From NCBI GenBank assembly GCA_017557425.1, contig JAFYYU010000012.1, positions 248,001 through 312,000 of the forward strand: a DNA stretch of 64,000 nucleotides, read 5' to 3'. Source of the DNA: Muribaculaceae bacterium. GTDB taxonomy: Bacteria; Bacteroidota; Bacteroidia; Bacteroidales; Muribaculaceae. The notes beneath the pieces are model-generated. The model did not search any database and was not told where the DNA came from. It saw only the letters and a list, made by a program, of their open reading frames with translations. The first letter of the stretch is position 1, and each line of letters begins with the position of its first letter. Made by a program: the position numbers and the translations under genes. Below are positions 2-47,132 of this stretch, piece after piece.

Positions 2-1099
2 GAAACCGATCTTTGCTTCTATTCTATTTCATATTACCAGGGAACTGCATACGATGCAGACAACTGGTTGATCATGCCACTTCACAAACTGGAGGGTGAC
101 TTGAGGTTCAAAGCATGGAGTTTAACATCCCAGTGGCCTGATGACATTCAAATTATGATTGGTAAGGAGGATGCTATCGAAGGCAATACTGTTTATACCG
201 ACATGTTCGAGACTATCGCAACTTACACATGCGATAGTGAGGAACCCCAAGAGTACTACATAGATTTGAGTGAATATAATGGTGAATTGGGTTATGTCGT
301 ATTCCGTCACCAGAATTACAACCAGTATGTCTTGTTCCTCGATGACATCTTCATTGGCGATCCCAATGCAGAAGTTGTTGTGCCCTACGAGTGGACCATT
401 ATACCTGCTCTGGAGACCAACGAATGCACCATCCCTGGCCTGACTCCTGAAACTACCTATGAGGTACAGGCAATGGCTTATAACGGTGATATAGAGACTG
501 ACTGGTGTGGCTCAGTGATCTTCACCACGCTGCCCGAGCCCGTAATTCCTGATGTTTACATGTTGGGAGGTAGCGGACAAACTTGGGATCCCACCAGTGG
601 AACCAAGTTCGACTATAACGCTGAGGACAACATCTACACCAAGACCATTACCTTCCCAGACGAGAATAACTACTTCGGCTTCACCACAAAGCTCGCTGAG
701 AACAACGATGATGGTGGCTGGGCGTACATTGAGCCCTTCCGCTTCGGCGCCGTGAGCGTGGGTAACTTCGACTATCTTGACGAGTATAACGGCCTGCCCA
801 TCGATCTGACTTGGGATGCGTATCAATCCATCCATATCGCTGGTGGCGAGTACAATCTGACCGTTGACCTCACGAGCATGAAGCTCATCATCGTGAAGGT
901 TGTTCCTCCCCACAATTACGATAAGGGTGACGTGAACCACGACCGTGCCGTCAACATCTCTGACGTAACGACTCTGATCGACTACCTACTGGGTATCGGT
1001 ACAGTTTGCGAGATCTGTGCTGACGTGAACGGTGATGGCCCCATCAACATTAGTGATGTTACTGCTTTGATTGATGTGCTGCTCGGTGGCAGCAACTAA
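2..1099 (+). CDS. Secreted jelly-roll/Fn3/dockerin protein, 5' end cut by window edge
   Basis: The reading frame is open from base 2, so the true start lies outside the window; 365 residues are visible. In order: the C-terminal part of a MAM-like 'choice-of-anchor' jelly roll ending in an IDDIFIGDPNAE-type strand (about 1-125), the end of a fibronectin type III fold (GLTPETTYEVQAMAYN, about 135-180), a module starting VYMLGGSG and containing AENNDDGGWAYIEPFRFG that resembles SusE/SusF-type starch-binding modules (about 184-300), and a C-terminal dockerin-like pair (GDVNHDRAVNISDV and ADVNGDGPINISDV). It closely resembles the next gene, so the two look like a tandem duplication. Surface or extracellular location is inferred from the domains. 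Ligand unknown. Confidence 0.8.
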   Translation, partial: ETDLCFYSISYYQGTAYDADNWLIMPLHKLEGDLRFKAWSLTSQWPDDIQIMIGKEDAIEGNTVYTDMFETIATYTCDSEEPQEYYIDLSEYNGELGYVVFRHQNYNQYVLFLDDIFIGDPNAEVVVPYEWTIIPALETNECTIPGLTPETTYEVQAMAYNGDIETDWCGSVIFTTLPEPVIPDVYMLGGSGQTWDPTSGTKFDYNAEDNIYTKTITFPDENNYFGFTTKLAENNDDGGWAYIEPFRFGAVSVGNFDYLDEYNGLPIDLTWDAYQSIHIAGGEYNLTVDLTSMKLIIVKVVPPHNYDKGDVNHDRAVNISDVTTLIDYLLGIGTVCEICADVNGDGPINISDVTALIDVLLGGSN

Positions 1100-1148
1100 T
1101 TGATAAACACTGTCCATTAGAGATTTCTAACAGGATAGTATTGAATAA

Positions 1149-1193
1149 AATGATGCGGTATGCTGGATTTATGGCACACCGCATCATTGTTTT
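1149..1193 (+). terminator. Rho-independent terminator
   Basis: An 11-bp perfect stem, AATGATGCGGT (1149-1159) with ACCGCATCATT (1178-1188), is followed by GTTTT. It sits just after the stop codon of the first dockerin protein. Confidence 0.75.
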
Positions 1194-1283
1194 GGACAAC
1201 CGATTAACTAGCGAAACAGTTAACAAAAAATGGTTGCAACACATCGCTAGGCAATGTGTTGTTAAAAAAAATTATTAAGCATA

Positions 1284-1313
1284 TTGTCAATAGGGAAAAA
1301 ATAGTTATTTTTG
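1284..1313 (+). promoter_or_regulatory. Bacteroidetes-type promoter for the 672-residue dockerin protein
   Basis: A TTG at 1284-1286 and TATTTTTG at 1306-1313 are 19 nt apart, matching the -33/-7 pattern. Transcription would start near 1319, leaving a leader of about 138 nt. Confidence 0.65.
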
Positions 1314-1457
1314 CGAAAATATTTCAAAGTTTAACCAAAACCGGGGTTATTTATCCAGTTTTATTTTATTTCTCGTTTTGGAAGCCTTTGATAAATCTGT
1401 ATGTAAGCTATTGAGTGTTAACTCCAAATAATTATTAATTTAAACTTTTAAACGTTT

Positions 1458-3476
1458 ATGAAGAAATTTTTAGTTTTACTCTTAGGCATGGCAGTTGCTG
1501 TATCTGCCAGTGCAGGGATTAACAAATCTCCGCTGCAAAAGAAGGTGACTGACGCCCCCAAGGCAAAGATTGAGAAGGTAACCCGCGCAAATGGTTTGGT
1601 TGCTCCCTCAACCAGCATCCAGTTCAATGGCTGGGACAAGTTTGCAAGCCACGTTTTGAGGTCTGATCAAGCCATTACTTGGGACTTTGAGGATGAAGGC
1701 CAGTTTGCTGAATTCCAGGCTCTCGATGCCGATGGTGACGGCTTCAACTGGAAGTACTTCAACAATGAGGGTTTGACCAGTGGCATAATGACTGCTCATG
1801 GTGGTTATGGCCTCGTTGCTTCGGCAAGTTATGACAAAGACAGCAGTACGCCCTTGACTCCCAACAACTGGCTGGTTTCGCCTGAGGTAACTCTGGGTGG
1901 TGCCTTGACGTTCTGGGCAGTAGGTCAGGATGATAGCTATGCGGAAGAGGTATTCGCAGTTTATGTATGTGTTGGCACGCCTTCCAGTACTGCCGACTTC
2001 GTGAAGGTAAGTCCAGATTTCACTGCTACTGGTAGTTATGTGCAGTATGAAATCGATCTGAGCGCTTACCAGGGCCAGGTTGGCCATTTCGCTATCCGTC
2101 ACTACAACGTGACCGACATGTTCTGGCTGAACATCGACGACATCACGCTGGATGTTGCTAGCATTGTACTGCCTTATCCCGCAGTTCCTGAGATTGAGGT
2201 TACTCCTGCTGCCACTTCTGCTCTTGTAGAGTGGACTGCCGACGAGAACGCTGACGGTTATAACCTGCGCTGGCGTCCCTGGACCGACATGTCAGGCAAT
2301 CCCCACGAGTGGACCTTCTCCGTTGCTAATCTCGATGAGGAACTTGACGGCTGGTGGACCTATGACATGGATGGTGACGGACAAGGTTGGGGCTTGGCTT
2401 ATACCGATAGCGAGCAAACCGATGCTTGCCTCATCTCTGGCTCTTATACCAGCAGTGGTGCTTGCTCGCCCGACAACTGGATCGGTACGCCTGACGTGCC
2501 CTTGAAGGGTGAACTCCACTTCACCATGTGGGGCCGCTCAGCTAGTTATCCTGAAGTTGTTCAGGTTTATGCTATGGTAGGTGAAGACATGTATCAGCTC
2601 TTCGAGGATTCTCTGATTACCACGACCACCCATACGGTTTACACTGCTGACCTGAGCGCATTTGATGGTGTTGAGGGTAGCATTGTCTTCCGCAACTACA
2701 GCACTTATGACCAGTGGTCAGTTTACATTGATGACGTCTTCATTGGCGATCCCAATGCTGAGCTTATCCAGCCTGCCGCTTGGAACTATGTATATAACAT
2801 TACCGACGCCGAATTCAACATCGAGGGCCTGACTCCCGAAACCAAGTATGAGGTACAGGTACAGAGCTACAACGCTGCTCATGAGAGTGAATGGTGTGAT
2901 ATCGTTGACTTCACCACGTTGGCCGAGATTAAGGATGTCTACATGCTGGGCGGCAATGACCAGGGTTGGGATCCCTCCTATGGCACCCAGTTTACCTATG
3001 ACGCTGAGAACGGCGTTTACACGCTGAACTACACCTTCCCCGCAGAGTTCAACTACTTCGGCTTCACCACCGAGCTCGCCGAGAACAACGACGATGGTGG
3101 CTGGGCATACATTGAGCCCTTCCGCTTCGGTGCTATTGCCGATGAAGGTACTGACTACTGGTACTCTGGCGAAGAGGACTTTGTATCACTGACCTGGGAT
3201 GCTTATCATGCAATCCGCATCGCTGGCGGCGAGTACAATCTGACCGTTGACTTGAACGAGATGAAGCTCTACATCGAGAAGGTTGAAGCTCCTCACAATT
3301 ACGAGGTTGGTGACGTGGACCACAATGGAGACGTGAACATTGCCGACGTTACGACCCTGATTGACTACCTGCTGGGCGGTGGCTCTGTTTGCGAGATTTG
3401 CGCTGATGTGGACGGTAGTGGAGATATTAACATCGCTGATGTAACCTCTCTTATCGATATCCTGTTGGGTCACTAA
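1458..3476 (+). CDS. Secreted jelly-roll/Fn3/SusE-like/dockerin protein
   Basis: 672 residues with a clear signal peptide (MKKFLVLLLGMAVAVSASAG). A first choice-of-anchor jelly roll spans about 70-235. An Fn3 domain then begins (ALVEWTADENADGYNLRWRPW, about 255-275) but is interrupted by a second jelly roll (about 283-440, ending VYIDDVFIGDPNAE). The Fn3 fold resumes as GLTPETKYEVQVQSYNA and ends near 490. A VYMLGG...GGWAYIEPFRFG module follows (about 493-610), then a dockerin-like pair from 618 (GDVDHNGDVNIADV, ADVDGSGDINIADV). It is a paralog of the gene at the left edge. Likely an exported adhesin or glycan-binding protein; no catalytic motif is seen. Ligand and partner unknown. Confidence 0.85.
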   Translation: MKKFLVLLLGMAVAVSASAGINKSPLQKKVTDAPKAKIEKVTRANGLVAPSTSIQFNGWDKFASHVLRSDQAITWDFEDEGQFAEFQALDADGDGFNWKYFNNEGLTSGIMTAHGGYGLVASASYDKDSSTPLTPNNWLVSPEVTLGGALTFWAVGQDDSYAEEVFAVYVCVGTPSSTADFVKVSPDFTATGSYVQYEIDLSAYQGQVGHFAIRHYNVTDMFWLNIDDITLDVASIVLPYPAVPEIEVTPAATSALVEWTADENADGYNLRWRPWTDMSGNPHEWTFSVANLDEELDGWWTYDMDGDGQGWGLAYTDSEQTDACLISGSYTSSGACSPDNWIGTPDVPLKGELHFTMWGRSASYPEVVQVYAMVGEDMYQLFEDSLITTTTHTVYTADLSAFDGVEGSIVFRNYSTYDQWSVYIDDVFIGDPNAELIQPAAWNYVYNITDAEFNIEGLTPETKYEVQVQSYNAAHESEWCDIVDFTTLAEIKDVYMLGGNDQGWDPSYGTQFTYDAENGVYTLNYTFPAEFNYFGFTTELAENNDDGGWAYIEPFRFGAIADEGTDYWYSGEEDFVSLTWDAYHAIRIAGGEYNLTVDLNEMKLYIEKVEAPHNYEVGDVDHNGDVNIADVTTLIDYLLGGGSVCEICADVDGSGDINIADVTSLIDILLGH

Positions 3477-3525
3477 TCATCTAGAGAAAAGAGACTGATA
3501 CTGACAGTTGTCAGTTTAACCTAAA

Positions 3526-3566: not shown

Positions 3567-3590
3567 TGTACAGTTATCTAATTCCTTTCG

Positions 3591-16356: not shown

Positions 16357-18147
16357 TTAAGAATTCAGTATTATATCGATGACTAAGTTCACGTCGGCGA
16401 TGTTGACCTCTTCGTCCTCGTTGACGTCACAGTCGTTGTCCGACTCACCGCCCAGGATGACTTCGATGATGCAGTTCACGTCGGCAATGTTGACCTCGCC
16501 GTCACCGTTCACGTCGCCTTTGAGCTTCTTGCTGCGGCAATAGATGGTGATGTCGTCAATGTTGACGCGGGAGCCCGATGTCTGGGAAATAGCGAAGCGC
16601 AACGGCCAGTCGCTGTCGACCTCCAAGATGAAGTGCTGCAGGCTGCCTCTGGTGACGGTCACTGACCCTAAGCCGATCCATGAGCTACCTTGATTAGTGC
16701 TGTAAGCAACCGAAAGATCGGCATCGCTGTCGTTACCATAGCTTGCGGCATAGAAGCCAATGGCCCTGACGTCAGTCACACTCTCAAGCATAGTGATGGC
16801 ACTGTTGCTGCTTTTGCCAAATCGGCATGAGAGTTTGTCATGACTCATGCTGTCGCCCCAGATACCGGCGTCGGTGAAGTACCAAGTCCAGGCATGTCCC
16901 TGAATTTCCTTGTTCCAGTATCCGCCGGTCTCACAGTCTTCCCAGTCCTCCATGATACTATCACCGTGTATCGTTGGATCCGGTCCGGGGTCCTGCTTGG
17001 TGGCTGTGGCGGTAACCGAGAATGTTGTCGATGCCTCGCTGCTGCTGATGGTAATGAAGTCGGTGTAGGTATCTTCTTCATCGGCAGCAAAGGTGATGAT
17101 GAACGAGGTGCCGTTGTTCACTTCGCTGGCCGTGAAGGTGTCGGCGCTCGAGTGGAAATAATCATTGTCGGTTATCGCCAGGGTGAGTGGCTGGTTCAGT
17201 CCCTCGCCCTTGAGGTTGATAACATAGTTCAACTCGGTGCCGACGGGAGTCGAGCCCAAGTCAATATATGAACCGTTGGCCGGAGAGGTGATAGTCGGAG
17301 TGACAATGCCGCTTGAGCCAGTCCAGGGCTTGCCCTGCATGTCGCCCCAGATGTATTCAGCCAACTCGGGGTGGTCGATAAAGGGGTTGCGGTTCCCTTG
17401 TATGCCATAGACGGCCTCATTGCGCTTGATTTCCTTATCGCTGACGGGATCGAGCCTGGTCCACTCCATGAGCATGTTGATGGTCCAGGTCGAGAAAGCC
17501 TTATATTTATTGGTCCGATAGTCAAGTTGGTCGCTGCCGGGCCAGTTAGGCAACTCATTCTTGTAGCAGGTCACCATATAGAAATAGGTGCGTGCCAGGT
17601 CGCCCTTGTATTCGTCATCGGGCTCGAAGACGGTGCCTGAGTAGCCGGGATAGGTGCAGGTGCCCAGTTTACCCTTGGCCACGTAGTTGCCGTAGGAGAG
17701 GCGTGTACCGTTGGCGCAAACGCCATAAGGATTATTGCCTCTTTGGCTGTTTACTTTGATGTCGGTTGGATAAACATGGAACACGTCGGTGTTCATGGGG
17801 GCTACGGCGCCATTGAACCAGCTCCTGGGAAAGCTGTGCTCACGGTTATAACCCTCGCCCACATGCGAGGCCGACGAGCCATTGTCGCTGGGCCTGTAAC
17901 GCACGTTGCTGTAGATATCGATGATATAGCCCTCACTATCGGTGTCAGCAGTCCTGAAAGCGCTGAGCAGTCCCGAAGTGTAGGACACTTCCCTGTGATC
18001 GCGGATGATGTTGCACAAGGCAGTCATCAGTGACTCGTCGCTTTTGCCAATGGCACTCTTGTAATAGTTCACGGGTTCGCTGGCCAGTGAGGTCAGTGCT
18101 ATTACTGCCATTGACAGCAGCAGGGATATTCGTGTATGCTTGCTCAT
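16357..18147 (-). CDS. Secreted endonuclease I family protein with dockerin
   Basis: 596 residues with a signal peptide (MSKHTRISLLLSMAVIALTSLAS). The nuclease domain (about 30-270) has EndA/NucM motifs: GEGYNREHSFPRSWF (catalytic His region), VNSQRGNNPYG and FEPDDEYKGDLARTYFYM. A beta-sandwich of about 100 residues follows (TITSPANGSYIDLGSTPVG...FSVTATA), then a jelly-roll-like module ending VNIDDITIYC, then a dockerin-like pair (GDVNGDGEVNIADV, CDVNEDEEVNIADV). The family degrades DNA and RNA non-specifically outside the cell. It starts 27 nt after the rlmN stop and may be read from the same transcript. Confidence 0.88.
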   Translation of the reverse strand: MSKHTRISLLLSMAVIALTSLASEPVNYYKSAIGKSDESLMTALCNIIRDHREVSYTSGLLSAFRTADTDSEGYIIDIYSNVRYRPSDNGSSASHVGEGYNREHSFPRSWFNGAVAPMNTDVFHVYPTDIKVNSQRGNNPYGVCANGTRLSYGNYVAKGKLGTCTYPGYSGTVFEPDDEYKGDLARTYFYMVTCYKNELPNWPGSDQLDYRTNKYKAFSTWTINMLMEWTRLDPVSDKEIKRNEAVYGIQGNRNPFIDHPELAEYIWGDMQGKPWTGSSGIVTPTITSPANGSYIDLGSTPVGTELNYVINLKGEGLNQPLTLAITDNDYFHSSADTFTASEVNNGTSFIITFAADEEDTYTDFITISSSEASTTFSVTATATKQDPGPDPTIHGDSIMEDWEDCETGGYWNKEIQGHAWTWYFTDAGIWGDSMSHDKLSCRFGKSSNSAITMLESVTDVRAIGFYAASYGNDSDADLSVAYSTNQGSSWIGLGSVTVTRGSLQHFILEVDSDWPLRFAISQTSGSRVNIDDITIYCRSKKLKGDVNGDGEVNIADVNCIIEVILGGESDNDCDVNEDEEVNIADVNLVIDIILNS

Positions 18148-20437: not shown

Positions 20438-23400
20438 TTACCACTGTCCGCCCAGCAGGTAGTCGATCAGGGTGGTCACGTCGGCGATGTTCACGCTATT
20501 GTCCTGATTGCAGTCGGCGGATGCGGGAGGCGTCGTGCCGCTTAGCAGGTAGTCGATCAGGGTGGTCACGTCGGCGATGTTCACACTGCCGTCACCGTTC
20601 ACGTCACCGCGCTGGGCGGTGTACTTGGCCGTAAAGTAGCCTGGGTTGCTCGGGCCACCGTCGATGTGGGCATAATCCTCATCAATGTGGTTTGGGTCAT
20701 AGGTTGTGCCCATGCCGCCTACCAGTGAGGTACAGTTCTCGAACATGTTCTCTGGGAAACTATAACTACCATATGATACAATGCCATCGGTGCTCCACCC
20801 TGTGCCAGCGTAGATGGTGATCAGACTCGAGCAGCCGCTGAACATTTTATACATATCGTAGACATTTGCGGTATTCCAGCCTGAAAGGTCAAGCGAGGTC
20901 AGTTTGCTGCAGTCTGTAAATGTCCTTTGTATTCTTTTAACGTTTCTGGTATCCCAGCCCGAAAGACTGAGCGACTCAAGCCCCGAGCACCCAGAGAACA
21001 TATTAATCATATTATTGACATTCCTGGTATCCCAATCCGAAAGGTCGAGCGAGTCGAGACTTGAGCAGTTGGAGAACATAGCTTCCATGCTGGTGACATT
21101 GCTGGTGTTCCATCCCGAGACATCGAGCTTAGTCAGACTCGAACAATGACTAAACGCAGTGCGCATATCGATGACATTGTCGGTTTTAAAACCTGTGAGG
21201 TTGAGTGTGGTCAAATTTGAGCAGTTATAGAACATATGGTCCATGCTGGTGAGCTTGCCGGTGTTCCACCCCGAGAGGTTGAGCGTTCTCAGACCCTTGC
21301 ATTCATAGAACATAGATGCCATGAGGATGACACTATCAGCTTTCCATCCCGAGAGGTCAAGCGAGGTCAGGCTACTGCAGCCGTAGAACATATCCCCCAT
21401 GTTTCTGACCTTGCCAGTATCCCAGTTTGATATATTGAGCGAAGTCAGCTGCGTGCAGCCAGAAAACATTCTTCTCATGTTCTCAACTTTGGCGGTATTC
21501 CAACTAGAAAGGTCGAGCAAGGTCAGCTTCTGGCAGTTGCCGAACAAATATTCCATGTTGATGACATTGGCGGTATTCCAACCCGATACATCGAGCGATT
21601 CCAGTTTCGGGCAGTTGCCGAACAGATAGTACATGTTGGTGACATTGCCCGTATGCCATCTTGAGACGTTGAGCGATGTCAATTCTGTGCAGTTGCCGAA
21701 CATAAATTCTATATTGGTGACATTGCTCGTATGCCAGCCTGAAAGGTTGGACGTAGACAGATGATAGCAACCTTCGAACATGTATGTCATATCGGTTACA
21801 CTATCAGTGTCCCAGTTGGAGAGGTCGATAGAAGTTATGCCCGTACAGCCTTCAAACATTCTGCTTGCACTTGTCATCCGACTTGTATTGACATTGTTCA
21901 GATCAAAGTTGATGCAACTTGAATAATCCTTGAACATCTCTGAGCAGTTGCCGACGAATTTCACATCGCTGGTTGCTGTAACGCTCTTGATGGACCCATA
22001 CCCAACGGCGCCCCATTTGTGGTCCTTATCGTACTCGCCCCAGTTGAGCGTCAGCTCGCCGGTTTCATAATAGAATGTGTAGCGAGGGTAATTATACCAT
22101 GTAGCGGAATAGAAGCGGTCGCCGTGAGAGTGAGTGGAAAGGGTAACTTCCATGGTGGGTTCGCTGAGTTCGGCACCCAACCAGCCACAGAAGATGTAAT
22201 TATTACTGTTGCTGTCGTTCAGCGTGCAAATCGGGTTGACAAACTTGAAGCTGGGTGTTTCATAGGTGTAAGTTTCGGGGTTGATTTGTCCTTCGGGTAG
22301 AGAGCCAAGTCCAAGGCTATAGATGATGGAATAGGTGTAACTGGCATCCAGAGTGGTGCCGAAACTATGGCTGATGGTGCCGCTTAAGCTATTACCCGCC
22401 AAGTCCTTGATCGTGCCGCTATAGCTATACACGGTGAAGGACCCGTTTGCATCGTCACCGATGGTGCCGCTGAAGGTGAGCACATTGCTGCCGCTTCCGC
22501 TCACATAATTGAGCGTGCCCCAGTTGGTGCTGAGCGTGGGGGTGCCACTGACGGTGACAATCTCGCTGAAGGGTACACTCACGTAGATGGTGTTGCCCTT
22601 GCTGTGGCGACCGCCGTTCACCTTGTAGTTGTCAAGAACGGTGGGTGCAGTGGCATCGACCAGCGCAAGACGCACCTTGAGGTCCTTAAAGTACCAATCG
22701 TCGGCGTCCTTGCCTGCCGCGTCAAAACGGATGTCCAGTTCATTGACTGTAGGCGCAAGGCAGAGCGAGCCGGTGTTTGGCGCATTATATGAAGACGACT
22801 TATATTTCTGATCATACAAGTAGCTGTCATCGTAGTCAAATGAGTAACGGGAGAGTACGGCATCAATTTCCGCAGCCTTATTCACAAAGTCATAGCGGTG
22901 AGGGAAGAACTGATAATGTGAATCGGTCACATATCCGCCGGTATAGCTCATCTCAAAGCACGCTTTGTATATCGAGGTGGATGGGTTGTTGACCGCACCA
23001 TCCGGGTCGTTGCCGTCGTAGGTCGTACTGTTGTCGGCGAGGATCTGGATGTACTGGTAGCCGTCCTTCTCCTCCTTTTGGGTGAAATACACCGTGGCAT
23101 ACATCTTATTTCCACGGTTGTTCAGATACGTTCGCAGGGCACTATTGTTATTGTAGAGGGCATCAGTGGATACCGTGTGAACCCCCTGCGCATATCCGGC
23201 ATCGGTGACCTTGATCCAATTAGAAGAGGAATAGGATACATCTAGGTACTTGTTGTTGCTGCCCGACTTGATGTTGCCGCTGTTGTCAAAATAGACCAGG
23301 TCGGTTACACTCTTGTTCAGGTAGGTGGTTGAGAACTGGTAGTTAGTGCCGTAATCGATGTCACGGTCACAGGAAGCCATCAGGAAACCTCCCTTTTCGA

Positions 23401-23728
23401 ATACCTCAAAGCGGTAGGTGCGTGTGGTGCCAGTCTGGAAATGGTACTGCTCGGCAATATTGCCGCCAGGGGTTTCAGTAACCGTGATCTTTTTCTCGTA
23501 TTCGCCTTCCGAGAAGTCCAGAGTGCCGACATCCTCGGTGAAGTGCACCCCAGCGATAGCCGATAGACTCACGGTGCGGTAATATACTGTCTCAGCAGCC
23601 CCACCCATACGGGAGATGGTGAACTCATTGCCGTTGTTTTTCACCGTGTAAGTGCTTTGCAGGATTTGTGCCCACGACGTCGCTGCCGTGAGCAGCGTCA
23701 CAAGAAGAAATAGTATTGTCTTTTTCAT
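20438..23728 (-). CDS. BspA-like (DUF285) repeat surface protein with dockerin
   Basis: 1096 residues with a signal peptide (MKKTILFLLVTLLTAATSWAQ). The N-terminal region (about 25-130) resembles a Calx-beta-type domain. Further beta-rich modules follow, including an Ig-like stretch with TPTLSTNWGTLNYVSGSG and an InlB-type beta-grasp segment (ICTLNDSNSNNYIFCGWLG). About 14 copies of a 24-residue repeat of the type L-D-L-S-G-W-(D/N)-T-x-N-V-x-x-M-x-x-M-F-x-x-C-x-x-L come next, as in BspA/DUF285 proteins. A C-terminal dockerin-like pair (GDVNGDGSVNIADV, ADCNQDNSVNIADV) ends it. In other species BspA-type repeats mediate adhesion. A longer start at 23782 is unlikely because TATCTTTG (23762-23769) lies between. 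Confidence 0.85.
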   Translation of the reverse strand: MKKTILFLLVTLLTAATSWAQILQSTYTVKNNGNEFTISRMGGAAETVYYRTVSLSAIAGVHFTEDVGTLDFSEGEYEKKITVTETPGGNIAEQYHFQTGTTRTYRFEVFEKGGFLMASCDRDIDYGTNYQFSTTYLNKSVTDLVYFDNSGNIKSGSNNKYLDVSYSSSNWIKVTDAGYAQGVHTVSTDALYNNNSALRTYLNNRGNKMYATVYFTQKEEKDGYQYIQILADNSTTYDGNDPDGAVNNPSTSIYKACFEMSYTGGYVTDSHYQFFPHRYDFVNKAAEIDAVLSRYSFDYDDSYLYDQKYKSSSYNAPNTGSLCLAPTVNELDIRFDAAGKDADDWYFKDLKVRLALVDATAPTVLDNYKVNGGRHSKGNTIYVSVPFSEIVTVSGTPTLSTNWGTLNYVSGSGSNVLTFSGTIGDDANGSFTVYSYSGTIKDLAGNSLSGTISHSFGTTLDASYTYSIIYSLGLGSLPEGQINPETYTYETPSFKFVNPICTLNDSNSNNYIFCGWLGAELSEPTMEVTLSTHSHGDRFYSATWYNYPRYTFYYETGELTLNWGEYDKDHKWGAVGYGSIKSVTATSDVKFVGNCSEMFKDYSSCINFDLNNVNTSRMTSASRMFEGCTGITSIDLSNWDTDSVTDMTYMFEGCYHLSTSNLSGWHTSNVTNIEFMFGNCTELTSLNVSRWHTGNVTNMYYLFGNCPKLESLDVSGWNTANVINMEYLFGNCQKLTLLDLSSWNTAKVENMRRMFSGCTQLTSLNISNWDTGKVRNMGDMFYGCSSLTSLDLSGWKADSVILMASMFYECKGLRTLNLSGWNTGKLTSMDHMFYNCSNLTTLNLTGFKTDNVIDMRTAFSHCSSLTKLDVSGWNTSNVTSMEAMFSNCSSLDSLDLSDWDTRNVNNMINMFSGCSGLESLSLSGWDTRNVKRIQRTFTDCSKLTSLDLSGWNTANVYDMYKMFSGCSSLITIYAGTGWSTDGIVSYGSYSFPENMFENCTSLVGGMGTTYDPNHIDEDYAHIDGGPSNPGYFTAKYTAQRGDVNGDGSVNIADVTTLIDYLLSGTTPPASADCNQDNSVNIADVTTLIDYLLGGQW
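20454..20584. repeat. 41-bp direct repeat encoding the two dockerin halves
   Basis: Bases 20454-20494 recur identically at 20544-20584 (90-bp period). Both encode the INIADVTTLIDYLL-type helix of the dockerin-like module. Confidence 0.85.
20845..21900 (-). repeat. 72-bp coding repeat array (BspA/DUF285)
   Basis: About 14 degenerate copies of a 72-bp unit encode the 24-residue surface repeats. Copies differ at synonymous and variable positions, so the array is old rather than freshly amplified. Confidence 0.8.
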
Positions 23729-24065
23729 AAGTGGAGATATTAAATGGTTAAAGATTTTTCGCAAAGATACAAAATAAATCAATAAATGTTGAATTTCTGG
23801 CTAAATTTTTTACATTTTTGTGCAAAAATGCCAGAAAAAGATAAAATCCATCAAGAGCATGGCATTGTTGCAGCAGCATCGGCTGTAACATCCCCTGCGC
23901 GCAAAGACGCTAAGATTGACGGTCGGCGAATTAAGCCAATTAAACAAAAATAGCACCCGCATTGCAAGAATGCGGATGCTATTAATGACTTAGCGGCTTT
24001 GCGCCTTAGCGTGAGGCCCCTGAATGCGGATGCCAGCTAAAGCCTAATACCTAAAGCCTAAAGCC
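23729..24065. other. 337-bp intergenic region between the BspA-like gene and pruA
   Basis: No gene is supported. It contains a -7 box for the BspA-like gene (TATCTTTG, minus strand, 23762-23769), two copies of the dispersed CTAAG/GCGCAAAG repeat (23897-23914 and 23989-24016) flanking the pruA terminator, and a CTAAAGC heptamer run ending at the pruA stop. Confidence 0.6.
23942..23983 (-). terminator. Rho-independent terminator of the rocD-pruA unit
   Basis: On the minus strand, AATAGCATCCGCATT pairs with AATGCGGGTGCTATT across a 5-nt loop (23949-23983) and a T-run follows. It lies about 80 nt past the pruA stop. Confidence 0.8.
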
Positions 24066-27096: not shown

Positions 27097-27447
27097 GTTC
27101 AGATGTTAATTGGTTAAAAGATGATTAAAGTTAATGAATTTTTACACTGCAAAAATAACCCATTTTGTGCAACCAATCTTAAGTTTCACAAAATTTAACG
27201 GAAATGAAACTGCTGGTAACTCCATTCAGCCAAACACCTTGTGTCATGTCCCACGCTAAGCTGCCAAGACGCAAAGGTTTTTAGATTGGTCGCAGGTTTC
27301 GCAAAAACCAATTCAAATAAAGAACTATAATCTCGCCCGTGAGGGTTAAATAGTCAGGTAAGGTTGCGATTGTTTGTATGAAATATTCACGCTTTGTTGA
27401 CTTTTTTGTATTTTTGTGGGTGCAAGTATAATAACTTTTAAATTTTG
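27097..27447. other. 351-bp divergent intergenic region
   Basis: No gene is supported. It contains the rocD -7 box (TATTTTTG, minus strand, 27150-27157), one copy of the dispersed repeat (27252-27277), and a TATTTTTG box (27409-27416, plus strand) ahead of the small dockerin gene. Confidence 0.6.
27252..27277. repeat. Dispersed CTAAG/GCAAAG repeat, single copy
   Basis: CACGCTAAGCTGCCAAGACG continues into CAAAGG. It matches the right arm of the inverted pair at 19411-19480 when read on the opposite strand. Confidence 0.5.
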
Positions 27448-28215
27448 ATGGAAATGAAAAAGACTGCTTCTTTATTCTTTGTATTATCGTTGATGCTGAC
27501 CTCGTTCACGGCTGGTGCCCAGGATCTGCGAGGTGATGTTGACTATGACGGCAAAGTAAGTATCGCCGATGTGACAACTTTGATTGACTACCTGCTCTCA
27601 GGTCAGTGGCCCGAAGATGTTCACGAGTGGGTTGACTTGGGGCTTCCCTCAGGCACGTTGTGGGCGACGTGCAACGTGGGTGCCAGCGCTCCCGAGGACT
27701 ACGGCGACTACTTCGCTTGGGGCGAGACCGCCCCCAAAGACTACTACGACAAGTCCACCTACAAGTGGTGCAACGGTAGCTACAACACGCTGACGAAGTA
27801 CTGCACTAACAGCAGTTACGGCAATGACGGCTTCACCGACGGCAAGATCGAGCTGGATTCTGAGGACGATGCGGCCACCGTGAACTGGGGTGAGAACTGG
27901 CGCATGCCGACCAATGACCAACAACAGGAACTGATTGATAACTGCACCAGGACATGGACGCAGTGCAACGGCGTGAACGGTACGTTGGTCACCGGACCTA
28001 ATGGTAACACCATCTTCTTGCCCGCTGCGGGCTTCCGTTCATGTGGTTTGCTCGGCGACGCGAGTGACTTCTGCTACTATTGGTCGCGCTCGCTCGACTC
28101 CGGCCACACGTTCCTCGCGTGTAGCCTGTACTTCTACTCGGGATACTATTATTGTGACAACTTCGACCGCTACTACGGGTTCGCCGTGCGTCCTGTGCGC
28201 GTGTCACAGAATTAA
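27448..28215 (+). CDS. Secreted protein: N-terminal half-dockerin plus FSU-like domain
   Basis: 255 residues; ATG at 27454 is an alternative start. The signal peptide (MKKTASLFFVLSLMLTSFTAGAQ) is followed directly by a single dockerin-like repeat (GDVDYDGKVSIADVTTLIDYLLSGQW, split here as GDVDYDGKVSIADV and LIDYLL), with no second half. The rest (about 60-253) is a compact domain with WVDLGLPSGTLWATCNVGA, YFAWGET, WRMPTNDQQQELIDNC and YYWSRS...YGFAVRPVR. This resembles the 'Fibrobacter succinogenes major paralogous' type of C-type-lectin/formylglycine-enzyme-like fold. Function unknown; exported. No operon partner. Confidence 0.75.
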   Translation: MEMKKTASLFFVLSLMLTSFTAGAQDLRGDVDYDGKVSIADVTTLIDYLLSGQWPEDVHEWVDLGLPSGTLWATCNVGASAPEDYGDYFAWGETAPKDYYDKSTYKWCNGSYNTLTKYCTNSSYGNDGFTDGKIELDSEDDAATVNWGENWRMPTNDQQQELIDNCTRTWTQCNGVNGTLVTGPNGNTIFLPAAGFRSCGLLGDASDFCYYWSRSLDSGHTFLACSLYFYSGYYYCDNFDRYYGFAVRPVRVSQN

Positions 28216-35491: not shown

Positions 35492-37063
35492 ATGAAACAT
35501 ATCATGGGAAAATTAAAGTCTGTTTTAGTGACCTGCCTTTTGGTGGCGTCCTTGATTCCTGTACCTGCCGGAGCACATATCATTCTGCCGGATGTGAATC
35601 TCGATAATGCGGCCAATATCAAGGATGTGACTGACCTTATCGACTACTTGTTGTTTGGTGAAGACGGTGGGTTCACGGTGTTACAAGGTTCCCTGTCGGC
35701 TACCGACTTTGGTGCTGTGGGTGACGGCGTTACCGATGATACCGAAGCACTGGAGAGACTGTTTGCCACAGCTGCCGCCCGAAAGATGGCGGTCTATATT
35801 CCCAGAGGCACTTACATGATCCGTCGCCCGTTGACTATCATGAGCGGCATGGAAATCTATGGCGATGGCTACTCGTCCATCATCAAGAAGTTCCCTGCAG
35901 CATGGCACAAACTCACCGATGCCATTCCGACCGGTGTTTACAATGATGATGAGTACAACTCCATTTCTGTCAAGGTAGATGGAGTCAGCGGCTATCATGT
36001 GGGTGACCACTGCTTTATCTCATATTCGACCAATCCGTTTGTACCCGGCAACACCAAGGCAAGGTATTGCACTTACGGCGAAATAATCGAAATCAACGAC
36101 AGTGCTATTGTTGAAAATGGGGTGGAAAAATATGAGGTCAAAATCAAGAGCGCCCATGACAGCGAGAAACATGGGGTGGTCTATAAACATGATGCAGGAA
36201 CAGTCTTGTCCACATCGTTCCCCATCCTGCGTTCCTGGGGATTCAAAGATGAGTGCATCAATGTCTATATTCATGACATCTGTCTCGATGGTAATCGGCA
36301 GACCGAGGGTCCAACCTACAACGGTGTGACTTACGAGCCCATGGAGTGGGCCAATGCCTGCATACATTTTGATGCTTACGGCACTAGCAAGGTCAATGGT
36401 ATTTCCTACAACAAGCACTCTTATAACCATGTCATAGTACATTGCAAACTCATCAACGCTTCCTATGACGGCCTCAGCGACCAGGGAGAGGGTGGACTCT
36501 ATGTCAAGAACTGTTCGATTCAGAATAACGCTATGTCTGGTGTGCACCTGGGTACCATATTTAATGGCGCCGTCATCACGAACAACACGATGAAGGGAAA
36601 TACAGAGCGCGGGGCTGGTGTGTTCTTCTGCCAGGATGTGACCAATGTTATCGTTGACAACAACACCATAACGGACTTCAATCATGGCTGCAGCGACGAG
36701 GAGTATGCTACGGTAGGAAAGTTCAATATCATCCGCAACAACACCTTTAATAATACGACCACCTACGTGTTTGATTTTCTCAAGTCAACATCTAAAAATC
36801 ACGGGGGCGGTTTGCTCATCACCGATAATACCATCAATGGTTTGAAATATACCATGTTTGCGGGCAATTATCTTGATGATGTCATTATCTCGAACAACAA
36901 AATCAAGAGCGTGGACACGATACCGTCAACACTGATTGTTTCTAATAATTCTAACGGCATGATCATCGTGGGCAACACGTTGCCCGAGGGCACCAGCATT
37001 TCGCAACCAGTCGACGTTACCGATGCTACCAACGTGGTAGAAGCGTCCAACTCATGGAACTGA
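35492..37063 (+). CDS. Secreted right-handed beta-helix protein (pectate-lyase-3-like) with N-terminal dockerin repeat
   Basis: 523 residues. A signal peptide (MGKLKSVLVTCLLVASLIPVPAGA from the second Met at 35504) is followed by one degenerate dockerin-like repeat (PDVNLDNAANIKDVTDLIDYLL, read as DVNLDNAANIKDV plus LIDYLL). The body begins with the pectate-lyase-3 opening ATDFGAVGDGVTDDTEALERLF and IPRGTYMIRRPL, then runs of beta-helix coils with Asn ladders (ITNNTMKGNTERGAGVFF, IVDNNTITDF, IIRNNTFNNT). The family includes polysaccharide lyases and glycosidases; no catalytic site is identified. It starts 52 nt after recG with no obvious promoter. Confidence 0.8.
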   Translation: MKHIMGKLKSVLVTCLLVASLIPVPAGAHIILPDVNLDNAANIKDVTDLIDYLLFGEDGGFTVLQGSLSATDFGAVGDGVTDDTEALERLFATAAARKMAVYIPRGTYMIRRPLTIMSGMEIYGDGYSSIIKKFPAAWHKLTDAIPTGVYNDDEYNSISVKVDGVSGYHVGDHCFISYSTNPFVPGNTKARYCTYGEIIEINDSAIVENGVEKYEVKIKSAHDSEKHGVVYKHDAGTVLSTSFPILRSWGFKDECINVYIHDICLDGNRQTEGPTYNGVTYEPMEWANACIHFDAYGTSKVNGISYNKHSYNHVIVHCKLINASYDGLSDQGEGGLYVKNCSIQNNAMSGVHLGTIFNGAVITNNTMKGNTERGAGVFFCQDVTNVIVDNNTITDFNHGCSDEEYATVGKFNIIRNNTFNNTTTYVFDFLKSTSKNHGGGLLITDNTINGLKYTMFAGNYLDDVIISNNKIKSVDTIPSTLIVSNNSNGMIIVGNTLPEGTSISQPVDVTDATNVVEASNSWN

Positions 37064-42643: not shown

Positions 42644-44275
42644 ATGAACAAAATGTTACTATTAAGAGGAGTTGTCCTGTTGGCGCTTTTGGCTTGTGCC
42701 GTGAGCACCAGTGCCGCAAACTACTACTTCTCCGACGGTGGAATTTACTACAGGTTGACGACTTACAATGACGGCAGCGGTGTCATCAGTGTCGAGAACA
42801 ATGGTACCAATACCTATTCAGGTCTTGTTGCCATCCCCGATAGCGTGGAATACAACGGCGTGAATTATCCTGTCACTACTATTGGTTACCAGGCATTTAA
42901 GGATTGTGCAGAACTTACTGGTGTCAAGATGCCCGAGGGAATCAAGATGCTGATGAATGAATCATTTGCTGGCTGTACTTCGTTGACGAGAATCACCTTG
43001 CCCAGTACCCTGCGGACGATTTACAATAATGCCTTTACCGGCTGTTCTAACCTCATGGACATTATTTGCTTGATGGAGAACCCGGTATCGTGCAATGAAA
43101 ACAACTTTGACAGTTACAACTATAACAACACCATACTCCATGTTCCCGGAGCCTCTATAGGCAGTTACTTTAGCACTTCGCCTTGGTCGAAATTCCTACA
43201 CATTAGGGCCATTGTCACACTTGATGAAGCTTTGAATGTCGAGGGCGGTAACATTGAGTTCACCGACGAGGGCGACTATCCCTGGGTTGTGAAGGAAGAA
43301 GATGGCCGCGTGTATGCCCAATCCAGCAACTCGGGTATCCATAGCAGTTACTCCACGTTTACGGCCACTGTCCGTGTCACTGAACCCTCCGTCCTGTCGT
43401 TTGATTTCAAGGCCTGGGGCGAAAGTGATCCATCGAATCCAAACACAAACTATGATGAGTGCGTGTTTATGATGAACGGCACTTCGATATTCCGTTACGG
43501 CGCTCGCGATAACGACTGGGAGACCTTTACTGTGGACCTGAATCCCAATATCACATACCGACTGGTTTGGTTCTATCACAAGGATGTCAATGAGAACGGT
43601 GTGGGCGACTACTTTGCCGTGGACAATATCAGAATTGTTTCCCAGAGTCATATCTTACTCAACGAGGCACTGAATGTCGAGGGCGGTAACATTGAGTTCA
43701 CCGACGAGGGTGACTATCCCTGGGTTGTGAAGGAAGGGGACGGCCGCCTGTATGCCCAATCCAGTAACGCCGGTATCCATAGCAGTTACTCCACATTTAC
43801 GGCCACTGTCCGTGTCACTGAACCCTCCGTCCTGTCCTTTGATTTCAAGGCCTGGGGCGAAAGTGATCCATCGAATCCAAACACAAACTATGATGAGTGC
43901 GTGTTTATGATGAACGGCACTTCGATATTCCGTTACGGCGCTCGCGATAACGACTGGGAGACCTTCACCGTGGACCTGAATCCCAATGTCACATACCGAT
44001 TGGTTTGGTTCTATCACAAGGATGTCAATGAGAATGGAGAGGGCGACTACTTCGCTGTGGATAATATAAAGATTGCTCCCAAGTCAATTCGCGGCGACGT
44101 GAACGATGATGGTTCTGTAAACATCGCTGACGTGACCTCGCTGATTGACTATCTGCTGAGCAGCAACGCATCGGGCGCCAACCTGAGTGCCGCCGACTGC
44201 AACCAGGACACCAGCATCAACATCGCCGATGTCACCGCTCTCATCGACTACCTGCTAAGCGGCAACTGGCCCTGA
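42644..44275 (+). CDS. Secreted LRR protein with duplicated jelly-roll domain and dockerin
   Basis: 543 residues with a signal peptide (MNKMLLLRGVVLLALLACAVSTSAA). An LRR_5/BspA-type region (about 45-170) has SVEYNGVNYPVTTIGYQAFKDC and LPSTLRTIYNNAFTGCSNL. Two near-identical domains follow: residues 193-332 and 339-478, each starting L-(D/N)-E-A-L-N-V-E-G-G-N-I-E-F and ending DYFAVDNI. They resemble choice-of-anchor/MAM-type jelly rolls. A dockerin-like pair ends the protein (GDVNDDGSVNIADV from 484; ADCNQDTSINIADV). Probably surface-exposed; the ligand is unknown. Confidence 0.85.
   Translation: MNKMLLLRGVVLLALLACAVSTSAANYYFSDGGIYYRLTTYNDGSGVISVENNGTNTYSGLVAIPDSVEYNGVNYPVTTIGYQAFKDCAELTGVKMPEGIKMLMNESFAGCTSLTRITLPSTLRTIYNNAFTGCSNLMDIICLMENPVSCNENNFDSYNYNNTILHVPGASIGSYFSTSPWSKFLHIRAIVTLDEALNVEGGNIEFTDEGDYPWVVKEEDGRVYAQSSNSGIHSSYSTFTATVRVTEPSVLSFDFKAWGESDPSNPNTNYDECVFMMNGTSIFRYGARDNDWETFTVDLNPNITYRLVWFYHKDVNENGVGDYFAVDNIRIVSQSHILLNEALNVEGGNIEFTDEGDYPWVVKEGDGRLYAQSSNAGIHSSYSTFTATVRVTEPSVLSFDFKAWGESDPSNPNTNYDECVFMMNGTSIFRYGARDNDWETFTVDLNPNVTYRLVWFYHKDVNENGEGDYFAVDNIKIAPKSIRGDVNDDGSVNIADVTSLIDYLLSSNASGANLSAADCNQDTSINIADVTALIDYLLSGNWP
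43220..44075 (+). repeat. 438-bp tandem coding repeat (two copies)
   Basis: Copy 1 starts at 43220 and copy 2 at 43658. Long stretches are identical at the DNA level, for example the segment encoding ESDPSNPNTNYDECVFMMNG, which points to recent duplication or gene conversion. Confidence 0.85.
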
Positions 44276-44384
44276 TCCCCCACAGAATAAACAAGAAGAA
44301 AAAGGGAAAACGCAGTGATGACCGAGGCGGGGCCCTGGCAGTCGTCTGTGCCACGGCATTGCCGTGGCGATAATTGACCGCGAT

Positions 44385-44415
44385 TTTGCAGTCTCAACAA
44401 TTATGAGTACCTTTG
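44385..44415 (+). promoter_or_regulatory. fabG promoter
   Basis: TTTG (44385-44388), 19 nt, then TACCTTTG (44408-44415): a near-ideal match. The leader to ATG 44465 is about 45 nt. Confidence 0.75.
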
Positions 44416-44464
44416 CAGCCCGTGAAATGAAATTAACAATAATAACTAAATAGATTTAGACACA

Positions 44465-45211: not shown

Positions 45212-45232
45212 TCTTTATATAAAAATACTTAA

Positions 45233-45270
45233 AAGCAGGGGCGCTCTATTAAGGGTGCCCTTGCTTTTTT
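45233..45270 (+). terminator. fabG terminator
   Basis: AAGCAGGGGCGC (45233-45244) pairs with GTGCCCTTGCTT (45255-45266) with two wobbles, followed by four more Ts. Confidence 0.85.
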
Positions 45271-45283
45271 GAAGATTTATGCT

Positions 45284-45291
45284 TAATTTTG
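45284..45291 (+). promoter_or_regulatory. -7 box upstream of the 592-residue dockerin protein
   Basis: TAATTTTG lies 62 nt before the ATG at 45354. The -33 element is not at the usual distance. Confidence 0.45.
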
Positions 45292-45353
45292 CCGCAATTC
45301 GGAAATTATTTCCCAAGAGTGTCATTTTAATTAATTAATTTAGAATTCTGATC

Positions 45354-47132
45354 ATGGATATAAAAACTATACTCATTGTTGCTGCTGCCTCGCTCATGGC
45401 CTTGAGTGCCGGCGCACAGTCGAAACAGTCTGCCCCGGTGCCGCAGCACCCAAAGGCATTGAGCCAAGTCATCGCCGAGGATGTGAAGGAAATGAACCGT
45501 TCCGATGGCCAGATGCGATCTGTAGAGTTGTCGCCCCGACAACCTGATGTCTATTACAGGCGTCCCGCTGGCGCTTTTTCAGGCTCATTGATGATTAAAG
45601 ATGGGTGTTATGACGGCAATGTTGGTTTTCCGCTTTTCTTGATGCTCAAGCCTTACGCTGATTACACATTCACAGCCATTGGTGATGGTCTGGACAGTGA
45701 GTGTGCTTTTCGGTGGTACAGGCCTAACGTCCCATACGATCCAGTGGGCAAACTGACAGTGAACTATGAGCCGGAGATATATGGAGTGCCTATCATGGAG
45801 GTGTTGAAGGGCGGTTCAGTCGTTGGCGAGTATCAGTATGCGGGTTACGATAATGCATGGATATATGCTTACCCATCATTCAGGGGTTATGAAGACTATG
45901 AATTACTGTTGTCAAGCAAGACTTTTTTATATGGTGATAATCACACGATGCTCACCTATTTCACGGGATGTACACCCTATGGAGAAAACGAAAAGGGATG
46001 GTGGTTCGGGAAGAATGGCGCCCATATCGATGGCATGGCTCAGGCATTTGAGAAGCCCGAACATCCTTATCTGCTCAAAAAGGTGGAGATGTTAACCACT
46101 GTTCAGAATTTCGCTTCTCCAGTCCATATAAAATGTAAGATTTACAGGCTTGACGAGATACCAGCCTATAACGATACCGCATCGGTTTCCTTACCCGAGG
46201 AGCCTGGTGAACTCGTCGCAATCGGTATGGGATCATTTGCTTTTGGTACAGGAGGCTTGGTGGAGTTTAAGTTATATAGCTTTCCTGAGTACAACCCTGA
46301 CTTATTATATGAAGATTGCCTGACTGTAGATTATCCGATACTCATAGTCGTTGACGGCTATAATGACCCTGAGGCAGAAGAACTCAAGGGATTTTCAGCC
46401 TATATCAGTTCAGATTATCATTTTGATGAGGGATATGGCGAACTGGCATACCTCAAATGCCCAATCAACGATGAAGAGGGGAATTTCACTGGACAATATC
46501 AATGGAAAGGCCTTAACAACTTCTTTTCCTCGGGAGAGATGAAGACAGGTTTCTCCATCTTCATCGTTGCCGAATACCCCTATATCACTTTCAAATATGA
46601 TGATGAAGATGGGAAATATATTTTCCCGGAAGAGGGTGGCGAATTGGTGAAAGATCTTCATGAGCAAGATTTATCCGAGATAGTCAATGGTATCAGATTT
46701 TATTCCTCGACGCCTAGCGAAGATGACGGCTGGGAATTGGTGTGGATCGGACATGACGAATTGCCCGATTGGCTTGAAATCAAACTGATTGATGATAAAG
46801 ATTCTGAAGGGGAATTCTCTGGTCTTGTCACCGCCCATGTGACTGCCGATCCATTGCCTAAAGAGATTCCTTATCGTGAGACGAAAGTGAGATTTCAGAT
46901 ACCGGGTGACTACATTGACTATACATTCATCCAAGAACGGTTTAGTATCCCGTTGGATTGTGACGTGAACGGCGACGGCGAGGTGAATATCGCCGACGTG
47001 AATTGCGTGATTGATGTGATCCTAGGGGGCAATGACATCTATGAAGGCCGCGCTGACGTAAATCGTGACGACGAGATCAATATCGCCGACGTCAATGCGG
47101 AGATTGATAAAATCTTAGGAAATAATCGGTAA
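45354..47132 (+). CDS. Secreted protein of unknown function with dockerin
   Basis: 592 residues with a signal peptide (MDIKTILIVAAASLMALSAGAQ). The first 440 residues are a unique region with many aromatic residues (FSGSLMIKDGCYDGNVGFPLF, GCTPYGENEKGWWFG); I recognise no family. About 440-530 resembles a BACON-type domain (LPDWLEIKLIDDKD, VTAHVTADPLPKEIPYRETKV). The dockerin-like pair starts near 537 (CDVNGDGEVNIADV, ADVNRDDEINIADV). The gene converges with the DUF695-like gene 10 nt downstream. Export is inferred; function unknown. Confidence 0.8.
   Translation: MDIKTILIVAAASLMALSAGAQSKQSAPVPQHPKALSQVIAEDVKEMNRSDGQMRSVELSPRQPDVYYRRPAGAFSGSLMIKDGCYDGNVGFPLFLMLKPYADYTFTAIGDGLDSECAFRWYRPNVPYDPVGKLTVNYEPEIYGVPIMEVLKGGSVVGEYQYAGYDNAWIYAYPSFRGYEDYELLLSSKTFLYGDNHTMLTYFTGCTPYGENEKGWWFGKNGAHIDGMAQAFEKPEHPYLLKKVEMLTTVQNFASPVHIKCKIYRLDEIPAYNDTASVSLPEEPGELVAIGMGSFAFGTGGLVEFKLYSFPEYNPDLLYEDCLTVDYPILIVVDGYNDPEAEELKGFSAYISSDYHFDEGYGELAYLKCPINDEEGNFTGQYQWKGLNNFFSSGEMKTGFSIFIVAEYPYITFKYDDEDGKYIFPEEGGELVKDLHEQDLSEIVNGIRFYSSTPSEDDGWELVWIGHDELPDWLEIKLIDDKDSEGEFSGLVTAHVTADPLPKEIPYRETKVRFQIPGDYIDYTFIQERFSIPLDCDVNGDGEVNIADVNCVIDVILGGNDIYEGRADVNRDDEINIADVNAEIDKILGNNR

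Follow-up and report, generated by a model that had tools for sequence, protein, structure and literature searches.

The dockerin-like modules analysed here are probably true dockerins that belong to one genome-wide cohesin-dockerin system, for which sequence comparisons predict a cell-bound, cellulosome-like assembly not directed at cellulose. Surface assembly would be the likeliest use of the dockerin tag. The window, i.e., the whole stretch of DNA analysed, comprises 64,000 nt of Muribaculaceae bacterium GCA_017557425.1 (contig JAFYYU010000012.1, positions 248,001-312,000, forward strand). All eight genes to which the first-pass annotation had assigned such modules were present at their positions:

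2..1099, + strand: P0001, cut 5' by the window edge; choice-of-anchor J, fn3 below cut-off, C-terminal T-class dockerin (~923-1081)
1458..3476, + strand: P0002; signal peptide, two Cleaved_Adhesin/jelly-roll stretches, fn3, C-terminal T-class dockerin (~3309-3467)
16357..18147, - strand: P0003; Endonuclease I, jelly-roll-like region (by eye), C-terminal N-class dockerin (~16369-16521)
20438..23782, - strand: P0004; PARCEL/BspA-type repeats, C-terminal T-class dockerin (~20453-20608)
27445..28215, + strand: P0005; signal peptide, single N-terminal dockerin half (~27532-27615), Lcl_C-like domain (below cut-off)
35492..37063, + strand: P0006; signal peptide, single N-terminal dockerin half-motif (from residue 34, ~35591-35659), pectate-lyase-like beta-helix
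42644..44275, + strand: P0007; BspA LRR, domain present twice (by eye), C-terminal T-class dockerin (~44093-44257)
45354..47132, + strand: P0008; signal peptide, body without Pfam match, C-terminal dockerin (match ~46962-47096), N-type by eye

Six of the eight genes exceeded the cut-off of Pfam Dockerin_1 (PF00404, 22.9 bits), where membership needs two F-hand repeats over the cut-off: those at 2 (36.7 bits), 1458 (26.4), 16357 (31.8), 20438 (48.6), 42644 (44.4) and 45354 (27.6). The claim of a dockerin in every gene did not extend to the genes at 27448 and 35492, which have one N-terminal half-module each. The half-module of the former scored 20.3 bits against Dockerin_1, below the cut-off (22.9 with its neighbours in the genome search), while the latter had no Pfam dockerin match and a single half-motif only. 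A hand-written dockerin motif was found twice in each of the six genes and once in each half-module gene; for each of the eight proteins, no more than 1 in 2000 composition-shuffled versions contained it. Six modules are C-terminal and two are N-terminal, directly after the signal peptide. The partner domains broadly match those that had been claimed, including Cleaved_Adhesin/choice-of-anchor J, fn3 (over the cut-off in P0002 alone among the window genes), Endonuclease I, LRR_5/PARCEL repeats and a pectate-lyase-like beta-helix, and none of the window partners is a cellulase. A local operon was ruled out, with ordinary genes surrounding the dockerin genes (Pfam on 10 of the 39 others).

The proposal of a general tag on scattered single genes was borne out by a profile search of the genome, which identified 122 distinct dockerin ORFs. 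The 133 matches fell at 131 places in 123 ORFs, one of which was dropped as a contained fragment; C20:61507 (internal stop) and C9:323483 (frame length and score identical to C17:31641) were excluded. Among the 122 are two almost identical fragments of 53 aa, located at contig ends, as well as some ORFs truncated where a contig, window or stretch stops. The underlying alignment (A1) holds modules of this genome, eight other genomes of the genus and G063, a genome from another family, all of which match it by construction. The best PDB matches of the dockerin profile were solved dockerins (4fl4, 3.6e-12; 2ccl, 2.9e-9). The module lies 0-11 residues from the C-terminus in 100 of the 122 ORFs and near the N-terminus in 13, and 118 of the 119 ORFs with complete N-termini passed a simple home-made hydrophobicity rule for signal peptides.

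The first-pass annotation had recognised no cohesin, which holds for the window, where none of the ten genome matches at E <= 1 lies, and fails for the genome as a whole. The lack of a recognisable receptor is contradicted by a genome-wide cohesin profile search, which revealed a divergent cohesin family with five strong modules (150, 125, 116, 112 and 81 bits) and a weak one (36 bits) in five proteins, encoded on C20, C4 and C13. The stock Pfam model PF00963 detected one of the genome's own modules over its cut-off (26.3 bits) and another below it (16.5 bits) and listed none of the others. In named relatives, it recognised 19 of 22 scaffold halves at E <= 0.01. The best PDB matches of the cohesin profile were cellulosomal cohesins (5n5p, 2.9e-6; 6kgc, 1.9e-5). 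It counts against our reading that six cohesins, at most two per protein, stand against about 120 dockerins in this MAG, which is 85% complete.

The annotation had also named many modules with no conserved candidate receptor as the outcome that would refute its view. Instead, the divergent cohesin family was found in all 61 genus genomes searched (weakly in two), each with at least 28 dockerin matches. The proposed co-occurrence of receptor and dockerin was also found among 295 Bacteroidales genomes, with dockerins in 21 of 23 cohesin-bearing versus 45 of 272 cohesin-less genomes (Fisher 2.3e-13, kinship ignored). Four genomes count against the link: G202 and G081 contain the cohesin and no dockerin match at E <= 1e-5 (G081 has one at 2.8e-5), and G154 and G256 contain many dockerins without the divergent cohesin.

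Recognition residues were counted at the 104 of 131 places with two pattern motifs, which represent 102 unique pairs (P0008 and the half-modules were left out); positions 12 and 13, which the pattern fixes, were left uncounted. Residues 10 and 17 are nearly invariant and 18 mostly so, while other loop positions vary. Two classes could be distinguished, T (I10, T14, I17 and D18 in both halves) and N (I10, N14 and I17), and the halves agreed in 63 T/T and 29 N/N pairs, with no mixed pairs and 10 others; this match between halves may reflect shared descent alone. The constancy of positions 10, 17 and mostly 18 amid variable neighbours, together with the co-occurrence of cohesins and dockerins, speaks against the modules being calcium-stabilised terminal caps with no partner. 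We regard such caps as improbable, although the terminal position of most modules and the lone half-modules of P0005 and P0006 would suit them.

Among 36 named loci, 22 contain a gene pair consisting of a cohesin-dockerin-cohesin-tail scaffold (CDC) and a cohesin-dockerin protein (CD), usually a small adaptor; a scaffold/adaptor pair carries cohesins in the window's genome as well. Since these loci were retrieved using scaffold and adaptor cohesins, the sample is biased towards the pair. Nine other loci have DC + CCD architectures and five have further forms, with neither pair form. A dockerin is present on 68 of the 71 cohesin ORFs of the named loci. Compared with the maximum of two cohesins per protein in the window's genome, larger scaffoldins occur in relatives: in four genus genomes (L211-L214), scaffoldins with six cohesins and a dockerin adjoin a dockerin-cohesin-tail gene, and G063 (L202) encodes scaffolds with 8 and 5 cohesins and a TIGR04183 end over the cut-off.

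The cargo was surveyed in 120 of the 122 ORFs, omitting the two 53-aa fragments. The first 25 of 41 and of 40 Pfam families included at least 16 Peptidase_C10, 17 LRR_5, 11 CotH, 5 S8, 5 alpha-amylase, 4 M6, 3 Endonuclease_1, 1 GH53 and 1 GH32. Neither a cellulase nor the preponderance of cellulases and plant-wall glycoside hydrolases that characterises cellulosome cargo was seen among these listed families. Lipoprotein anchoring of cargo was ruled out, as the lipobox pattern occurred in 3 of 119 leaders, each time, as judged by eye, within the hydrophobic core and followed by an AxA site.

SprA, the pore of the T9SS, is encoded in the genome (C20:204342-211580, 2651 bits) and in 57 of the 61 genus genomes. 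Scaffold tails from the genus and named relatives stay below the cut-off of the T9SS C-terminal domain (CTD) model TIGR04183, which counts against our reading: one scan of six gave no match, and in another four scored 16.6-17.4 bits against a cut-off of 23. Alignment to nine CTDs gave hhalign probabilities of 70 and 80%. Copies of TIGR04183 number 4-23 per genus genome (7 in this one), and are thus rarer than in 36 of 40 other families, which have at least 20 under a scoring cap near 51. A CTD-like tail specific to the genus (A5, an alignment of tails taken from this genome and from named relatives) occurs 12-45 times in each genus genome (19 in this one) and 0-2 times elsewhere. Because this tail is frequent, the low TIGR04183 count partly reflects model sensitivity. 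The idea that the genus lost its T9SS tails and that dockerins replaced them is weakened by these counts, and further by G063, which has many dockerins as well as many CTDs.

In some proteins a dockerin stands where homologues have a CTD. At the place of the dockerin in the window nuclease, 21 of 25 order-level homologues have TIGR04183 (E <= 0.01), an observation that also speaks for the cohesin-dockerin system favoured here; the 25 remained from the 29 best-scoring loci (112 of 198 genomes had a match) after four ran off the locus. Four endonuclease I paralogues in the genome end in a dockerin (two), a dockerin plus CTD-like tail (one) or a CTD-like tail recognised by eye (one). Of L152 and L153, which share 46% identity over 278 aa, the first terminates in a CTD-like tail and the second in a dockerin. 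All three observations would fit a dockerin that is itself an alternative C-terminal sorting signal read by the T9SS, with cohesins a secondary use. We judge this quite improbable, given that 13 of the 122 dockerins are near N-termini, that a dockerin precedes a CTD-like end in 5 of 24 G063 ORFs, and that EF-hands consist of helices, which do not resemble the beta-sandwich of a CTD.

That 100 of the 122 dockerin ORFs end in the module leaves the passage of cargo across the outer membrane without explanation, which counts against our reading. Export in trans is a tentative and rather unlikely answer: CTD-less cargo would bind a CTD-bearing cohesin carrier through its dockerin and cross together with that carrier. 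In that case the dockerin would take the place of the CTD in both export and anchoring, and the T9SS would move pre-assembled complexes. Cargo and cohesins might instead meet in the periplasm and remain there, consistent with Sec-like cargo leaders and with the lack of a recognised outer-membrane export signal on most cargo. Such retention seems very improbable in view of the CTD-like scaffold tails, which exceed the CTD cut-off in G063, and the CTDs on most homologues of one cargo enzyme. Binding to cohesins of other gut bacteria, e.g., ruminococcal scaffoldins, is the most far-fetched alternative: many named relatives are, from their titles, ruminant-gut MAGs, and that gut is described in the available text of PMC7480376 as harbouring true cellulosomes, but the genus has its own cohesins throughout, and its dockerin recognition positions differ by eye from those of G063, which fits each lineage having its own partner.

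In the surface assembly that we favour, the T9SS would export the scaffold, with its cohesin-dockerin-cohesin modules and CTD-like tail, and attach it to the outside of the cell. The small adaptor, a cohesin with a C-terminal dockerin, would dock on the scaffold, and cohesins would hold T- and N-class cargo by Ca2+-dependent binding. The predicted outcome is a complex that stays on the cell and brings together peptidases, nucleases, amylases and repeat proteins.

Clostridial and ruminococcal cellulosomes are anchored by SLH or LPxTG elements. The present system resembles them in its dockerin and cohesin families, by sequence, and, in the relatives studied here, in a scaffoldin that carries several cohesins and a distinct dockerin of its own and in anchoring- and adaptor-type proteins. 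It differs in its Gram-negative host, in a CTD-like tail in place of SLH/LPxTG and in the absence of cellulases among the listed cargo families. The Pfam matches of those 22 scaffold halves from named relatives include no CBM.

A closer parallel is Ca. Stygibacter (Cloacimonadota), for which, according to the sections available of PMC8542988, a cellulosome-like complex was inferred from MAGs. Both have C-terminal dockerins on signal-peptide enzymes, which in Stygibacter include S8 and gingipain-like peptidases, and the scaffoldin proposed for it, with cohesins in tandem and a CTD that would tether it to the organism's own surface, is a similar idea. As far as those sections go, Stygibacter, from another phylum, has four named dockerin enzymes, one other dockerin protein and CBM2/3 on the scaffoldin, whereas the present system spans a genus, with some 120 dockerin ORFs in this genome, dockerins of two classes and a scaffold paired with an adaptor. 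The same source cites the Planctosome of Nemodlikiaceae (Andrei 2019), a non-canonical cellulosome-like structure for polypeptide degradation, which by its description resembles our peptidase-bearing set. Many dockerins for few cohesins are also found in Ruminococcus albus, a member of the Clostridiales, where the excerpted text of PMC6118326 interprets this as a way of tethering individual enzymes to the cell surface.

Dockerins have been reported in rumen Bacteroidetes, where their gene neighbourhoods gave them no defined role (PMC7480376, in part), and cohesins in some rumen Bacteroidetes bins are already on record (PMC6071333). In the accessible part of the latter, camel rumen bin 136 is tabulated with 5 dockerins and 1 cohesin and named among tandem-cohesin bins, and bin 49 has 11 dockerins and 0 cohesins. 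These bins share with our genome the presence of dockerins in Bacteroidetes; unlike the system described here, that part of the report mentions no anchor, gene pair or cohesin subfamily for them. The present analysis adds likely receptors mostly missed by the stock model, a recurring gene pair and candidate recognition residues, which together make the binding question directly testable with recombinant modules. The finding raises the question of how CTD-less cargo exits a Gram-negative cell and, if true, would extend cellulosome-like assembly to the protease- and repeat-rich secretome of gut Bacteroidales.

All eight genes to which the first-pass annotation had assigned dockerin-like modules are present in the window. 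The Dockerin_1 profile scores over its cut-off in six of them, whereas the genes at 27448 and 35492 each carry only a single half-module, located directly after the signal peptide. Composition alone does not account for the dockerin motif in the window genes, and the genes adjoining them are ordinary among the neighbours examined. The gene at 20438-23782 (minus strand) also contains 13 stretches of PARCEL repeats (TIGR02167) and matches DUF285, a family named from Mycoplasma.

The window corresponds to C9:248001-312000 of a metagenome-assembled genome (2.58 Mb, 24 contigs, 85% complete), in which Dockerin_1 has 133 matches (E ≤ 1). We derived 122 distinct ORFs from 131 of these; identical duplicates were merged and one near-identical fragment pair was kept apart. 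A few genes occur twice in the assembly because contig ends overlap. The ends of C9/C17, C1/C13, C11/C19 and C5/C12 appear to coincide or to be duplicates; the window gene at 45354 reappears at the start of C17, as does the end of the one at 42644. The dockerin lies 0-11 residues from the C-terminus in 100 ORFs, near the N-terminus in 13 and elsewhere in nine, and 118 of the 119 ORFs with a complete N-terminus have a signal peptide by a simple hydrophobicity rule. A Pfam search of 120 dockerin ORFs, whose counts are lower bounds among the families listed, identified C10 peptidases (at least 16), subtilases (at least 5), M6 peptidases (at least 4), LRR_5 (at least 17), CotH (at least 11), alpha-amylase (at least 5), endonuclease I (at least 3), GH53 (at least 1) and GH32 (at least 1), with no cellulase family among those listed. 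SusD proteins are normally lipoproteins; one SusD-like protein on C3 (L065, 3232-4482), whose 3' end lies outside the fetched locus, has a dockerin near its N-terminus and a leader without a lipobox.

The earlier observation that no cohesin is visible holds for the window, which has no cohesin profile match at E ≤ 1, but not for the genome. With stock Pfam Cohesin, a single module (C20:239847, 26.3 bits) exceeds the cut-off, and another scores 16.5 bits. Starting from these two and from modules of related genomes, we built a profile that reached 38 modules by iteration (22 in the alignment). Searching the whole genome with it revealed cohesin modules in five proteins (150, 125, 116, 112 and 81 bits in four, 36 bits in the fifth), so the suggestion that no cohesin is recognisable does not extend to the genome. 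The profile's best matches among PDB chains are cellulosomal cohesins (5n5p, 2.9e-6; 6kgc, 1.9e-5).

The sequences show the parts of this system, their families, their conservation and their co-occurrence. The cohesin profile matches all 61 genus genomes searched, weakly in two (G013, 6.1e-5; G037, 8.4e-8). In other families it matches four genomes out of 40, and two of those matches are again weak. Among 295 evenly drawn Bacteroidales genomes, dockerins occur in 21 of 23 with the cohesin versus 45 of 272 without it (Fisher 2.3e-13, relatedness ignored), with exceptions on both sides (G081 and G202; G154 and G256). The latter two, from family f94, have many dockerins, with counts that reach the scoring cap, without this cohesin family; another receptor is possible there.

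Using scaffold and adaptor cohesins of this genome as queries, we fetched 36 loci of named records. These are filed as uncultured Prevotellaceae, Muribaculaceae, Bacteroidales and one Porphyromonadaceae, and many of their titles mention ruminant-gut samples. A cohesin-dockerin-cohesin scaffold accompanies a cohesin-dockerin protein in 22 loci, the latter being 213-267 aa long in 21 of them. Nine loci pair a dockerin-cohesin protein with a cohesin-cohesin-dockerin protein, and five have neither form. Nearly all cohesin ORFs of these loci (68/71) also bear a dockerin. DUF6383 matches 4 of the 22 scaffold halves. The genome under study has the scaffold and cohesin-dockerin pair, as well as two adjoining LRR-dockerin-cohesin-tail genes. 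In four genus genomes, a gene for six tandem cohesins and a C-terminal dockerin lies beside a dockerin-cohesin-tail gene, an arrangement that matches primary and anchoring scaffoldins.

Scaffold tails in the genus and the named relatives are CTD-like only, while scaffolds with eight and five cohesins in G063, a genome of another family, have ends that match the T9SS C-terminal model TIGR04183 over its curated cut-off. The T9SS pore SprA was found in the genome under study; on C20, two subtilase-dockerin genes lie immediately upstream of it on the same strand (L247, 1770-5942 and 6582-14087). A genus-specific C-terminal tail, YFNLAGQ..GV.IVVTTY.DGT...KVIK (for example at C20:37201 and C4:30445), is perhaps a divergent T9SS tail. 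It has 12-45 copies per genus genome and 0-2 in the other 40 genomes.

Among complete order-level homologues of the window endonuclease I, 21 of 25 have a C-terminal TIGR04183 match (E ≤ 0.01). Two of the four paralogues in the genome end in a dockerin; the third has a dockerin and a CTD-like tail (18.3 bits, below cut-off), and the tail of the fourth is CTD-like by eye and absent from the TIGR04183 matches listed. L152 and L153 (46% identity over 278 aa) form a second such pair, with a CTD-like tail in one and a dockerin in the other. Of the 24 dockerin ORFs in G063, 18 have the dockerin as their last domain, one has it near the N-terminus, and five (L252, L254, L256, L262 and L265) have an end, CTD-like by eye, 197-210 residues past it in every case. 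Dockerin and CTD therefore take one and the same position, which would be expected of two tags that each lead to the surface.

Type I dockerins contact the cohesin through positions 10, 11, 17 and 18, and when the modules are aligned to the solved structure 2ccl, the positions so numbered here fall on these sites. Across the first and second halves of 102 unique dockerin pairs, Ile occupies position 10 in 101 and 98 and position 17 in 100 and 99, and Asp occupies position 18 in 86 and 83, while positions 4, 7, 15 and 22 are variable. The residue at position 14 defines two classes that agree within pairs (63 T/T, 29 N/N, 0 mixed, 10 others). Both halves of every one of the 63 T/T pairs carry I10, I17 and D18. 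Among N/N pairs, I10 is retained, I17 is almost always present, and position 18 varies. In the scaffold-internal dockerin of the genome under study, positions 14 and 17 are V and A and position 18 is R or H; by eye, dockerins of the six-cohesin scaffoldins have T or S at 10 and mostly Y-N at 17-18. These divergent residues would fit separate specificities for cargo versus assembly.

Cohesin-dockerin assembly as such is already known, and Bensoussan 2017 reportedly concerns rumen cellulosomal components. Passages of earlier papers infer a CTD-anchored, peptidase-bearing version in Ca. Stygibacter (PMC8542988) and record rumen Bacteroidetes dockerins of undefined role (PMC7480376). Parts of PMC6071333 describe dockerins in Bacteroidetes bins of the camel rumen, of which one holds 11 but lacks any cohesin; cohesins are recorded there too, in tandem in bin 136. 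Excerpts of PMC9763041 list 13 of 25 MAGs from several taxa with cohesin and dockerin and nine with dockerins only; PF00963 is the cohesin model named in sections of this paper and PMC7480376. A portion of PMC5831590 describes its genome, and other Bacteroidetes genomes, as without cellulosomal components. In the genome survey PMC11557425, 'bacteroid' occurs twice, in reference titles only, and the review PMC12484212 mentions neither Bacteroidota, Bacteroidetes nor Bacteroidales. No account of this cohesin family or of the gene pair turned up in the literature searched, which beyond the papers named above covered titles and the starts of abstracts; subscription papers could contain related data.

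The boldest answer to how cargo lacking a CTD crosses the outer membrane, which we consider improbable, is joint export with a cohesin-CTD carrier. The best reading is that secreted cargo docks on T9SS-anchored cohesin scaffolds: dockerin cargo would bind the cohesin scaffold at the cell surface, where T9SS would anchor it.
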